Shown: piece by piece, positions 2,513 through 50,184 of the stretch
Layout: the number at the start of each line of letters is the position of its first letter
How positions within the stretch are numbered: position 1 is the stretch's first letter
Assembly (NCBI RefSeq): GCF_000430005.1
Contig: NZ_AUCY01000025.1
Coordinates: 1-50,184 of the forward strand
DNA from: Desulfovibrio cuneatus DSM 11391
GTDB taxonomy: Bacteria; Desulfobacterota; Desulfovibrionia; Desulfovibrionales; Desulfovibrionaceae
DNA: 50,184 nt
Direction: 5' to 3'
Position numbers and translations under genes: made by a program
Notes under the pieces: model-generated
Told to the model about the DNA's origin: nothing
Seen by the model: the letters and a program-made list of their open reading frames with translations, nothing else
Databases searched by the model: none

Positions 2513-3208
2513 TTATTGCCCCTGCGCTTCCGCATGTGTTTTATGCTTCAAGCTGGTGCCTTCCACCATAAAATACGCATGTTCCGCAATGTTGGCCGCA
2601 CGGCCATAAATCCTCGTTAACGCCCGCGCCACCAGCAATTGATGCATGGTATGCAATTGTCTGCCATAGCTGTTTGGTTCTGCGCTTTCCGGGCTTGGCA
2701 AGCTGTCATGCAGCAGCCGCACTTCCAGTTGTGTTACGTCGGCACTGCCCCTGCTTACCTGCAAGGCCAGTGGCATGTCTTCCTGCTGGAAGGCGGTAAG
2801 GGCGCTTTGCAGGGCACGCCGGGCCACCTGCATAAGCTCGCGCAGTTGCGGGCTGGTGCATTGGTCTTTGTCTTGTTGTATAAGCAACGCGCGTTCCGCA
2901 ATGCTTACCGCTTCATCCCCAATGCGTTCCAAATCTACTGCCATGCGCAGGGTGCTTACCAGAAAGCGCAAATCCCGTGCCACGGGCTGGGCGCGGGCCA
3001 GAATGGAAAGGGCAAGGCTGTCAATTTCATTTTCCAGGGCATTAATGGTGTGGTCGTGGTCAATAACCTGAACCGCCAGGGGGGTGTTGCCCTCTTCAAG
3101 GGCGATGCAGGCGCGTTCCACCGCTTCGCGTGCTTCTGCGCACATCACAAGCAGGCGGGTGCGCAGGTGGGTAAGCTGGGTGTGCAGGTGTGTGTCGTGT
3201 GCTGTCAT
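2513..3208 (-). CDS. phoU: Phosphate-specific transport system accessory protein PhoU
   Basis: PhoU is a cytoplasmic all-helical protein with two three-helix repeats. It represses Pho signalling when phosphate is plentiful by acting between the Pst transporter and PhoR. The 231-residue length is typical. Both repeats are visible, with the metal-binding type pattern in LALSILARAQPVARDLRFL and a matching LLVARALTRIYGRAANIAEHA. I place the start at MTAHDTH because an AGGAAGG binding site sits just upstream, inside the end of pstB; the longer open frame only overlaps pstB. It is the last gene of phoB-phoR-pstB-phoU, four bases after the pstB stop, and is followed by a terminator. A second, different PhoU-like protein (DUF47) occurs at 39901-40581. 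Confidence 0.93.
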   Translation of the reverse strand: MTAHDTHLHTQLTHLRTRLLVMCAEAREAVERACIALEEGNTPLAVQVIDHDHTINALENEIDSLALSILARAQPVARDLRFLVSTLRMAVDLERIGDEAVSIAERALLIQQDKDQCTSPQLRELMQVARRALQSALTAFQQEDMPLALQVSRGSADVTQLEVRLLHDSLPSPESAEPNSYGRQLHTMHQLLVARALTRIYGRAANIAEHAYFMVEGTSLKHKTHAEAQGQ

Positions 3209-7498: not shown

Positions 7499-7559
7499 CC
7501 CGCTGTTTGGTGGTATTCTAAGAAAAGAGCATTATGCACGGGTTTTACTTGCTTTCATT

Positions 7560-7712
7560 GGGGACGCTGTCCCCTAGCCCCTGCAAGGGGCGTGACGCCC
7601 CTTGACCCCCATTTGCGCTTACGATCCAGCGTTGCGGGAAAGTAAGCGCTGATGCGGGTTCCAAGGGCATCATGCCCTTGGCGGAGGGGGCTGGGGAGGC
7701 AGAGCCCCCCCA
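7560..7712. repeat. Modular GC-rich hairpin repeat, copy R1
   Basis: A chain of short hairpins: GGGGAC-gct-GTCCCC, then CAAGGGGCG-tga-CGCCCCTTG, then a central pair GCGCTTAC (7615-7622) with GTAAGCGC (7642-7649), then CAAGGGC with GCCCTTG, then a GGGGAGGCAGAGCCCCCCC end. The reverse complement aligns throughout with R4 (48686-48839), except that the central hairpin differs. It lies between pstS and pstC. Confidence 0.8.
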
Positions 7713-7761
7713 AGTAAAAAGAGTAATAGCACTAGGCTAATTGGCCCAAAAAGGATTTCCC

Positions 7762-15148: not shown

Positions 15149-15210
15149 AGAAATTAACGAATGAAATGAGTCAATTGCTCTAGGGAAACACTGATTACAT
15201 GATATTTTAG

Positions 15211-15334
15211 AAACGCGCAGTTATTTCGTTTGGCAAGGCGCGAGCTTTTTTTGAAGCAGGAGTGGACTCTTCCGTCCTCGACTGTTTCAAAAAAAGTGAT
15301 GCAACGCCGCCAAACGGAATAAATCAGCGTTTCC
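15211..15334. repeat. 125-bp palindrome, copy A
   Basis: Outer arms AAACGCGCAGTTATTTCGTTT and its inexact complement ending AATCAGCGTTTCC; inner arms TTTTTTTGAA and TTTCAAAAAAA; apical hairpin GGAC-TCTTCC-GTCC. An extra copy of the outer arm, GGAAACACTGATT, lies at 15184-15196. It sits between DUF554 and uvrA. The T run is on the 5' side of the hairpin, so this is not a classical terminator. Confidence 0.85.
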
Positions 15335-27001: not shown

Positions 27002-27072
27002 GGGGAGGGCGCTGTCCCCCAGTCCTTCTGCACGGGACATGACGCCCTTTGCCCCCCATTTGTGCAGAAGAC
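27002..27072. repeat. Modular GC-rich hairpin repeat, partial copy R2
   Basis: Begins GGGGAGGGCGCTGTCCCCC, continues GGGACATGACGCCC and then CCCCCCATTT, matching the first half of R1 in order. After CCCATTT the sequence is GTGCAGAA (27062-27069), which pairs with TTCTGCAC at 27026-27033. The second half of the module is missing. Confidence 0.65.
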
Positions 27073-27112
27073 AAAATTGGGCATTGCGGTGCCTTGGGCG
27101 GTGAGCACACCA

Positions 27113-31455: not shown

Positions 31456-31490
31456 ACTCACCTGCTGTGCAAAAAGATTATGTTGCTATG

Positions 31491-31613
31491 AAACGCGGAG
31501 TTATTCCGTTTGGCGGCGTTACTTCATTTTTTTTTGAAACAGTCGAGGACGGAAGAGTCAACTCCTGCTTCAAAAAAACTCGTGCCTTGCCAAATGAAAA
31601 ACTGAGCGTTTCC
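31491..31613. repeat. 125-bp palindrome, copy B (inverted relative to A)
   Basis: Same element as 15211-15334 in opposite orientation: AAACGCGGAGTTATTCCGTTT at one end and GAGCGTTTCC at the other, centre CAGTCGAGGACGGAAGAGTC (31540-31559). It lies between the cysteine desulfidase and sigma-54 regulator genes. Confidence 0.85.
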
Positions 31614-36408: not shown

Positions 36409-36454
36409 GGGAAACCTCCAGGGGAATGACTTTTGATGAGCAGTACGATTGGGA

Positions 36455-36529
36455 AGGCTCTGCCTCCCCAAGCCCCCTGCAAGGGGAATCATTCCCCTTG
36501 CAGGGGGCTTGGGGGACAGCGTCCCCCAA
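36455..36529. repeat. Modular GC-rich hairpin repeat, compact copy R3
   Basis: Has the AGGCTCTGCCTCCCC left end and GGGGGACAGCGTCCCCC right end shared with R1 and R4. Between them is a perfect 24-bp inverted repeat: 36466-36489 pairs with 36491-36514 around a single C. The central variable hairpin is absent. It lies 12 bases past the aspS stop, and the strong stem could also end that transcript. Confidence 0.85.
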
Positions 36530-36540
36530 AGTATAGCAGG

Positions 36541-38367: not shown

Positions 38368-38480
38368 GTGTGGTCCTTGTATTTCACCGGATAGCGAATG
38401 GTGTGGCAACTCAACGTAAGTATTGGGGAATGCTGTCCCTGCTCAATAAAATGAACAATGCAATGACTAGCTGGCATTTT

Positions 38481-38606
38481 GGAAACGCGCAGTTATTTCG
38501 TTTGGCAAGGCGCAAGCTTTTTTTGAAGCAGGAGTGGACTCTTCCGTCCATGACTGTTTCAAAAAAAGTGAAGCAACGCCGCCAAACGGAATAAATCAGC
38601 GTTTCC
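38481..38606. repeat. 125-bp palindrome, copy C
   Basis: Nearly identical to copy A and in the same plus-strand orientation: GGAAACGCGCAGTTATTTCG start, TTTTTTTGAA and TTTCAAAAAAA inner arms, centre GGAGTGGACTCTTCCGTCC, end AATCAGCGTTTCC. It abuts the hisS stop codon (38607-38609) and fills the gap to aspS. Confidence 0.87.
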
Positions 38607-48671: not shown

Positions 48672-48685
48672 CATAGAATTTGGTG

Positions 48686-48839
48686 AGGCTCTGCCTCCCC
48701 AACCCCCACCGCCAAGGGCATGATGCCCTTGGAACCCCGCATCAGCGTTCATCTTTTCGCCTTGCAAAAAGATGAACGCAAATGGGGGTCAAGGGGTATC
48801 ATGCCCCTTGCAGGGGGGCTGGGGGACAGCGTCCCCCAG
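48686..48839. repeat. Modular GC-rich hairpin repeat, full copy R4
   Basis: Starts AGGCTCTGCCTCCCC, then CCAAGGGC-atgat-GCCCTTGG, then GCATCAGCG. A central hairpin pairs GCGTTCATC (48745-48753) with GATGAACGC (48771-48779). Next come AAATGGGGGTC and CAAGGGG...CCCCTTG, ending GGGGGACAGCGTCCCCC. Apart from the central hairpin it aligns with the reverse of R1 throughout. Confidence 0.85.
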
Positions 48840-49849: not shown

Positions 49850-49905
49850 ACCCCAGGCTCTGCCTGGGGACTCCCAAAGTTTGACTTTTCCAGAAATAGA
49901 AGAGA

Positions 49906-49944
49906 CCTCCGTTGTTGAACCGCTCAAAGTTCATCAACAGGAGG
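49906..49944 (+). promoter_or_regulatory. Hairpin covering the tnpA ribosome binding site
   Basis: CCTCCGTTGTTGA (49906-49918) pairs with TCATCAACAGGAGG (49931-49944) and buries the AGGAGG before the tnpA ATG. IS200 is known to limit transposase translation by such a structure, and this copy appears to do the same. Confidence 0.75.
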
Positions 49945-49950
49945 CCCCAA

Positions 49951-50184
49951 ATGGATGGAGCCTTGAGTTTAAGTCACTCCAAATGGGTTTGCAAGTACCA
50001 TGTGGTTTGGATTCCAAAGTACCGCAAGAAAAAGCTTTTTGAAGGTTTGAGAAAGCAGCTTGGTGATGTCTTCCACGCTCTTGCCCAACAGAAGGAATGC
50101 AGGATTTTGGAAGGGCATTTGCTCACAGACCATGTGCACATTCTTATCTCAATTCCACCAAAGATGGCAGTTTCTTCTGCTGTT
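49951..50184 (+). CDS. tnpA: IS200-type Y1 transposase TnpA, partial
   Basis: The first 78 residues of a HUH-class tyrosine transposase: SHSKWVCKYHVVWIPKYRKK, then the HUH motif in LTDHVHILISIPPK. The gene continues beyond the window, so the catalytic tyrosine is not seen. The small IS200 type acts without a TnpB in many elements; whether a tnpB follows here is unknown. AGGAGG precedes the ATG. Confidence 0.92.
   Translation, partial: MDGALSLSHSKWVCKYHVVWIPKYRKKKLFEGLRKQLGDVFHALAQQKECRILEGHLLTDHVHILISIPPKMAVSSAV

Follow-up and report, generated by a model that had tools for sequence, protein, structure and literature searches.

Hairpins that keep their pairing while their sequence changes pose an old question, and the answer given to it has usually been selection on RNA. 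The question arises again in a 50,184-nucleotide stretch of Desulfovibrio cuneatus DSM 11391 (the whole of this stretch is called the window here), which is one contig of a 3,359,127-base, 76-contig genome with a completeness of 96.3%. A sequence-only reading of the window had singled out four elements, R1 to R4, in which constant flanks enclose self-pairing and apparently interchangeable centres, and had likened them to a mosaic REP/BIME system. How does the centre of such an element vary and stay paired?

Here we describe these elements as copies of a hairpin string, a six-hairpin foldback of about 160 bp that is present in about 100 copies in the 3.36-Mb genome. The string pairs without preference for strand or for G·T, reassorts most of its modules within 160 bp and, at some orthologous sites of a related species pair, carries whole-tip paired differences, features that make the choice among template switching, conversion and selection testable. 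We consider it somewhat probable (about 0.55) that this string represents a miniature interspersed element of REPIN-like type in the Desulfovibrionaceae, a DNA foldback with held arms and a self-pairing centre that is rewritten by template switching or by conversion. The string also raises the question of what moves REPIN-like elements where RAYT is not found.

Anatomy and copy number of the hairpin string

In an intact string, H1 is followed by a CCCC/GGGG closing stem (H2), which encloses H3, H4 and H5, and then by H6. The elements of the window, with the parts of R4, are as follows.

48680..48838, + strand: R4, intact hairpin string, flanked by an mtnA-like (IF-2B-family) gene and a YjbR-family gene
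48680..48702, + strand: R4 H1, outer hairpin, triloop TCT
48704..48816, + strand: R4 H2, CCCC (48704-48707) pairing with GGGG (48813-48816) and enclosing the inner three hairpins
48712..48732, + strand: R4 H3, inner hairpin, triloop TGA
48745..48779, + strand: R4 H4, central hairpin, variable, 35 nt
48790..48810, + strand: R4 H5, inner hairpin, triloop TCA
48820..48838, + strand: R4 H6, outer hairpin, triloop AGC
7556..7713, - strand: R1, intact hairpin string, flanked by a PBP_like_2 (phosphate-type binding protein) gene and a BPD_transp_1 permease gene
27004..27089, - strand: R2, right half of a string, decayed (nhmmer E 1.7e-10)
36449..36530, + strand: R3, string without H3 and H4 (the centre), flanked by a class II tRNA-synthetase gene and a transpeptidase gene

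R4 and R1 do align end to end, in units slightly longer than first described, and their centres, correctly quoted at the outset, are two 35-nt versions of the same hairpin. The predicted fold of R4 reaches -104.9 kcal/mol against -62.1 +/- 4.7 in 200 shuffles (z -9.2), and that of R1 lies at z -6.65. R3 lacks the centre, as had been noticed, with H3 and H4 both missing; it is made up of H1, an extended symmetrical H5 hairpin and H6, and since the 19-nt left arm and the H5-side right arm of this hairpin are perfect reverse complements of each other, R3 looks like a template-switch self-copy. R2 is indeed half a unit, the right half in a decayed state, but the different arm that had been taken for its replacement centre falls away: in our reading the pair TTCTGCAC/GTGCAGAA brackets H5 and forms no such centre.

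The right-end palindrome GGGGACAGCGTCCCC occurs 94 times in the genome with at most one mismatch, against no occurrence of its letter-reversed control, and together with the matches of a blastn search with R4 (best 40 of 162 candidates scored) and of a covariance model (149 over both strands, best 150 of 2,849 candidates scored) this shows that the copies are not due to chance. The model was built from 43 intact copies, left after 5 non-intact units had been removed by hand from the 48 found; the string is similar to its own reverse complement, and the model matches many places on both strands. Distinct string sites in the genome stretches examined number 103, and their gene contexts, called with a simple home-made codon-usage gene finder, are tandem with the string opposite (40) or in the same orientation (36), convergent (19), within a predicted open reading frame (4) or an end (4). 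Among the 95 resolved sites none lies between divergent genes, where about 20 would be expected from the composition of the window, whose divergent pairs make up 7 of its 36 gene pairs and contain 2,529 of its 12,105 intergenic bases (binomial probability about 2e-10 by bases and 1e-9 by gene pairs). Plasmid and phage records searched with R4 gave no match, and a pattern search of viral contigs found two, neither of which scores under the string model.

A variable centre that stays mostly paired

Across the 43 intact copies the mean pairwise divergence is 0.338 (33.8%) in the centre and 0.077 (7.7%) in the arms, and the two are barely correlated (r 0.08). All 43 centres are different, and in a wider set of 78 (84 rows minus 6 with broken or replaced centres) 77 are distinct and 69 are 35 nt long. 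The triloops of the side hairpins are close to fixed (H1 TCT in 41, H3 TGA in 36, H5 TCA in 39 and H6 AGC in 37 of the 43 copies), and the loop of the centre is free. In four other genomes (G007, G008, G012 and G014) the centre is, by eye, seemingly no more variable than the arms.

Over the 62 base pairs of the 43-copy alignment 96.7% of cells are paired, against at most 58% in slid control structures. Changes on both sides affect 15 pairs and 159 cells, compared with 10.5 and 52.5 in shuffles, and in helix 4 they reach 11 of 22 pairs. Within the centres 624 of 685 base pairs are Watson-Crick and 61 are not. Drift without pairing, which the sequence-only reading had held against a diversifying system, is thus found in one half only: the centres drift, but for the most part they remain paired. 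The centre is no set of swapped cassettes either, for the centres once called interchangeable keep, in 69 of 78 cases, one 35-nt frame within which they differ partly by paired substitutions, and their divergence at orthologous sites resembles that of the adjacent spacer (see below).

Paired change is also seen between similar copies. Among 70 copies whose centre is gapless, 62 copy pairs differ at exactly two of the 32 stem bases, and in 24 of these both differences fall within one base pair, where 1/31 would be expected if the differences were independent; the copies share ancestry, so that copy pairs are not independent events. Nearest neighbours that differ in one base pair do so on one side in 27 cases and on both sides in 24, of which 18 exchange one Watson-Crick pair for another. 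The best-supported reading is a REPIN-like foldback with held arms and mostly reassorting modules, in whose tips and centre the two sides of the hairpin often change in concert, although similar counts of paired change could also arise from selection on the hairpin with fast double substitution.

Mismatches in the centre stems of the wider set are G·T in 52 cases and A·C in 43 (p 0.41). This near equality, together with the occurrence of the string on either strand and its avoidance of divergent promoters, favours pairing that acts in DNA rather than in RNA.

Reassortment of modules and inserted cassettes

Polymorphic columns have a mean r2 of 0.087 if they belong to one module and of 0.0282 if they belong to different ones, and permutation gives about 0.024 for both (0.0238 +/- 0.0014 between modules, with a within-module standard deviation of 0.0015). 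The modules are therefore close to linkage equilibrium, with between-module linkage that is slight, not nil, and on this ground the string is a mosaic. The core of the initial description, an interspersed REP-like family of mosaic make-up whose flanks are constant and whose self-pairing centre is diversified, is borne out by the low linkage between modules (0.028) and by the 77 distinct centres among 78. H5 is mostly either GGGG-AA-TCA-TT-CCCC or GGGG-CG-TCA-CG-YCCC, with strong linkage inside the hairpin, and these two forms are unlinked to the nearby centre (Mantel 0.012, 121 of 300 permutations as high). Distances in H3 and in the centre are correlated (Mantel 0.199, 2 of 300 permutations as high), and within H4 the inner part is likewise correlated with the outer (0.276, 0 of 300).

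Two cassettes were met in and around the strings. X is a 78-nt hairpin cassette (best 40 of 98 candidates scored), and at the 30 distinct junctions inspected its right flank is the string-hairpin ATCAT in 12 and the ACTC of another repeat, family D, in 18; at locus L328 a string left flank is joined across X to a D right flank, and in L333 the left flank of X is rearranged. Cassette Y occurs 30 times in the loci examined, in several cases between H1 and H3. At about 2183-2590 of L248 (G000:C31) three Y cassettes of the CTCCACGGCTCGCTACGCTCGCGACTGCCGTCGGC type stand in close succession with their flanks repeated.

Orthologous strings in two related species

The window MtnA is 61-63% identical to that of the five same-genus genomes matched, and 62-70% identical to the first 30 named matches listed, nearly all of them Desulfovibrionaceae or related records. 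Genomes of the own genus being too distant for orthologous sites, the comparison was made in another genus, between the closely related species G023 and G087, which are 90% identical over one 3.2-kb locus and 82-95% at other sites. Thirteen of the 19 G023 sites examined have an orthologue among the G087 string loci examined; in this one species pair, seven site pairs have a full string in both genomes and were scored, and the other 6 of the 13 are partial and went unscored.

Pooled over the seven full strings, identity is 216/217 (99.5%) in H5 and 162/177 in H1, both biased upwards because the search was run with these two hairpins as patterns, allowing up to 3 edits and up to 4 substitutions, and 146/162 in H3 and 127/147 in H6. 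The centre is identical at 470/683 positions (69%), the adjacent 60-nt flanks at 300/449 and 229/438, and the more distant flanks at 3120/3614 and 2690/3773. The divergence of orthologous centres is thus about equal to that of the adjacent spacer, and a hypermutable centre, which we had considered, is rejected on this account. Orthologous centres also resemble each other more (0.67) than non-orthologous ones do (0.51 +/- 0.11, 42 comparisons), which indicates that a centre is passed on by descent rather than drawn afresh each time; long hairpins are still predicted in the orthologous centres of both species.

Change at orthologous sites, the outcome proposed earlier as support for an exchange process, does occur in this species pair. 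The H3 tip reads CATGATG in one species and AGTGACT in the other at two sites and CATGATG against GATGATC at a third, every form being fully paired, so that clean, fully paired tip alleles are present at three of the seven orthologous full strings. At L357/L358 the tip is CGTGATG against GGTGACTC, neither form fully paired; one site differs in the H3 loop (TGA against TCA), and two have the same tip, at one of which (L407/L421) two stem bases differ without compensation. Flips of the TGA/TCA loop are too few in these data to prove inversion. Among the partial pairs, L410/L419 differs at the tip of H5 (AGTCACT against GATCATC), L412/L423 differs at two bases of H5, and pieces have been gained or lost at L414/L402, L416/L399 and L413/L426. 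As for copies that are fixed and never mobile, which had been named as evidence to the contrary, sites are often shared (13 of 19), yet the one site checked more widely, the first orthologous one, has no string and an unrelated spacer in four other species of this genus (G111, G140, G151 and G129).

Distribution in the Desulfovibrionaceae

The string model matches 27 of 59 genomes, the own genome included, at E <= 0.001 (best 50 candidates scored per genome), namely 24 of 35 family genomes against 3 of 24 same-order genomes outside the family, a rough negative control in which each of the three has one weak match. In an even draw from the Desulfovibrionaceae (best 24 candidates scored per genome) matches were found in 60 of the 119 genomes and in 29 of the 44 genera; all these counts run over both strands, and some of the weakest matches may be unrelated hairpins rich in G+C. 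In the other genomes read, the arm sequences are their own and the layout is common to all. The commonest readable triloop in the loci of eleven other genomes is TCA/TGA (111), followed by GGA/TCC (49). A string stands directly after mtnA, as at R4, in L138 (4074-4191, 66.8 bits), and a weak string-like match does so in L164 (4133-4257, 26.7 bits).

A possible role of Y1 transposases was examined through PF01797, which has matches in 13 of the 24 family genomes that bear strings and in 5 of the 11 that do not. The search gave no PF01797 match in the remaining 11 of the 24 string-bearing genomes, several of these assemblies being incomplete, and the matchless genomes include G023 (29 string matches), G030 (15), G024 (10) and G029 (8), all four with a listed completeness of 99-100% (matches over both strands, best 50 candidates scored per genome). 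We see no sign that the string depends on a Y1 transposase. In the own genome there are ten PF01797 matches, all at contig ends, and those read are of the IS200 type.

Relation to known repeats

The closest known kind is the REPIN, which PMC3116915 describes as two conserved inverted 16-mers, typically 71 or 110 bp apart, around a spacer whose length and hairpin capacity are critical and in which compensatory changes are common. Like a REPIN, the string has conserved inverted ends around a hairpin-capable spacer, is extragenic and is present in many copies per genome, and its centre varies in sequence, with compensatory changes, at a fixed length (35 nt in 69 of 78). Unlike a REPIN, it has two hairpins in each arm, a unit of about 160 bp and no GTAG foot, and no PF01797 match accompanies it in 11 of 24 string-bearing family genomes; for the string, moreover, module reassortment and orthologous tip differences have been measured. 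The core phenomenon is thus already known in REPINs (PMC3116915). New, as far as our searches show, are the many genomes without a detectable Y1, the presence of four side hairpins whose loops are nearly fixed, the reassortment measured here and the paired tip differences at orthologous sites. In the open-access literature we found no description of these repeats in Desulfovibrio.

BIMEs are built of REP units and are bound by gyrase, IHF or Pol I. According to PMC2817692 and PMC3733652, REP and BIME sequences are palindromic, extragenic and mosaic, and the string, a palindromic, extragenic mosaic of several modules, shares these traits; but its modules belong to one layout, whereas BIMEs are arrays of one unit, and its CGTC lies, by reading, inside hairpins and not as an end tag. 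A further hallmark of RAYT-type REPs, according to PMC6006769, is the tetranucleotide GTAG or GTGG, which stands on the 5' side of the hairpin at a distance of 0-2 nt, and this foot is absent from the 43-copy consensus. The REP/BIME likeness first proposed stands for the mosaic and extragenic character, and fails for the foot and, in 11 of 24 string-bearing family genomes, for PF01797. In attC the order of GTT and AAC is opposite to that in the string, and an attC-like recombination site was dropped for this reason.

Template switching, according to PMC8794818 and PMC8604942, makes and repairs hairpins, homogenises the arms of inverted repeats and inverts spacers. The likeness to the string lies in compensatory changes of several bases at once, in the homogenising of arms and in the inversion of spacers at hairpins; the difference is that those accounts concern RNA genes and yeast genes, and the process is here proposed for a dispersed mosaic repeat.

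Origin of the string and rival explanations

Under the reading that we favour, the foldback consists of two inverted arms, each of two hairpins with near-fixed triloops, around a central hairpin whose sequence is free and whose length and self-pairing are kept. String copies would have spread as parts of non-autonomous mobile elements, given that the outer ends differ among copies and that a site can be empty in relatives, and the arms would be held by recognition, by copy-to-copy conversion or by both. Replication would switch template within or between hairpins and copy one arm onto the other, which would leave centre and tips self-complementary. The centre drifts with its pairing kept, probably by hairpin-templated template switching or by conversion between copies, with selection against unpaired forms as a possible addition; the uncompensated changes at orthologous sites indicate that such a process would be imperfect. 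For the host, the string may serve as an inter-cistronic or 3'-end hairpin block, and a part in the termination or protection of transcripts would be plausible from its position.

A related but more tentative proposal is that the string belongs to a Y1-independent class of foldbacks, in which copies, each at its fixed chromosomal site, trade hairpin modules with one another through hairpin copying at the DNA level. The TGA/TCA and outer triloops, read by a putative protein, would steer this exchange, the centre would be free except for self-pairing, and small hairpin cassettes, here one of 78 nt, would sit at such tips.

That the string is a structured RNA element, a 3' UTR, terminator or attenuator kept locus by locus through compensatory evolution in the transcript, we hold to be unlikely, in spite of the strong covariation and of the empty count between divergent genes (0 of 95 resolved sites), both of which speak for it. 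In the genus of G023 and G087 some centres are, by inspection, G+C hairpins between runs of A and T and resemble bidirectional terminators, which also speaks for it. Yet between tandem genes the string points the same way (36) about as often as the opposite way (40), the model matches both strands at many places, G·T is in no excess over A·C (52 and 43), and most modules reassort almost freely. Under Rfam 15 two tRNAs alone exceed the gathering score in the whole window, the strings are weak matches at most and all below that score (R4 25.8 bits at best, cut-off 75), and no terminator-like site is called at R4.

MITEs are non-autonomous elements with terminal inverted repeats, and an ordinary MITE moved by a TIR-recognising transposase, with the string as a passenger and its centre merely drifting, appears somewhat less credible again. 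The string is likewise non-autonomous, its families are genome-specific, its site can be empty, and TIR-like ends surround some copies: by eye, strings lie between ends of the TTAAGGAAACGCTGATTTATTC type in G007, G008, G012 and G014 and between different ones in G017. As for a target-site duplication, TA is suspected by eye at the ends of G008 and G012 copies, and no clean junction was seen. In the own genome the ends, scored leniently on 43 copies, are of type T2 on both sides in 12 and on one side in 8, and of type T1 on at least one side in 9 and on both in 1. The same score finds neither type in 14 copies and ends of either type on one side only in 16, so that TIRs are not general at full string copies. 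Two unrelated end types in one genome, with an arm identity to consensus of 0.938-0.959 in every class, are hard to reconcile with such a MITE; the string ends are unrelated among copies or missing, its interior covaries, and from a plain passenger one would not expect paired centres or triloops that persist from genus to genus.

A true REP/REPIN system moved by RAYT or by the resident IS200-type Y1 transposase would account for the shared REPIN layout (PMC3116915) and for the AGGCTCTGCCT tip common to H1 and the resident IS200-type hairpin end, but is very improbable in view of the 11 of 24 string-bearing family genomes without PF01797, among them the string-rich, near-complete G023, G030, G024 and G029, of the confinement of the ten own-genome matches to contig ends, and of a consensus without the GTAG/GTGG foot.

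Other repeats in the window

The IS200-type element with this hairpin end lies at 49851-50184, where it is truncated by the contig end. Repeat family D is present at 15189-15334, 38461-38606 and 31490-31578, with ends of the GAAACGCTGATTTATTC type and a long hairpin; D-like ends flank hairpin strings in G007, G008, G012 and G014. A 173-nt inverted repeat, 92% complementary, occupies 678-850 and 2075-2247, its copies 1,224 nt apart, and resembles the ends of a mobile element. Close by, at 2285-2328 and 2372-2415, lies a 44-nt direct repeat, 84% identical, which contains a palindrome of the TGCCTTCGCAGGGATGAC type.
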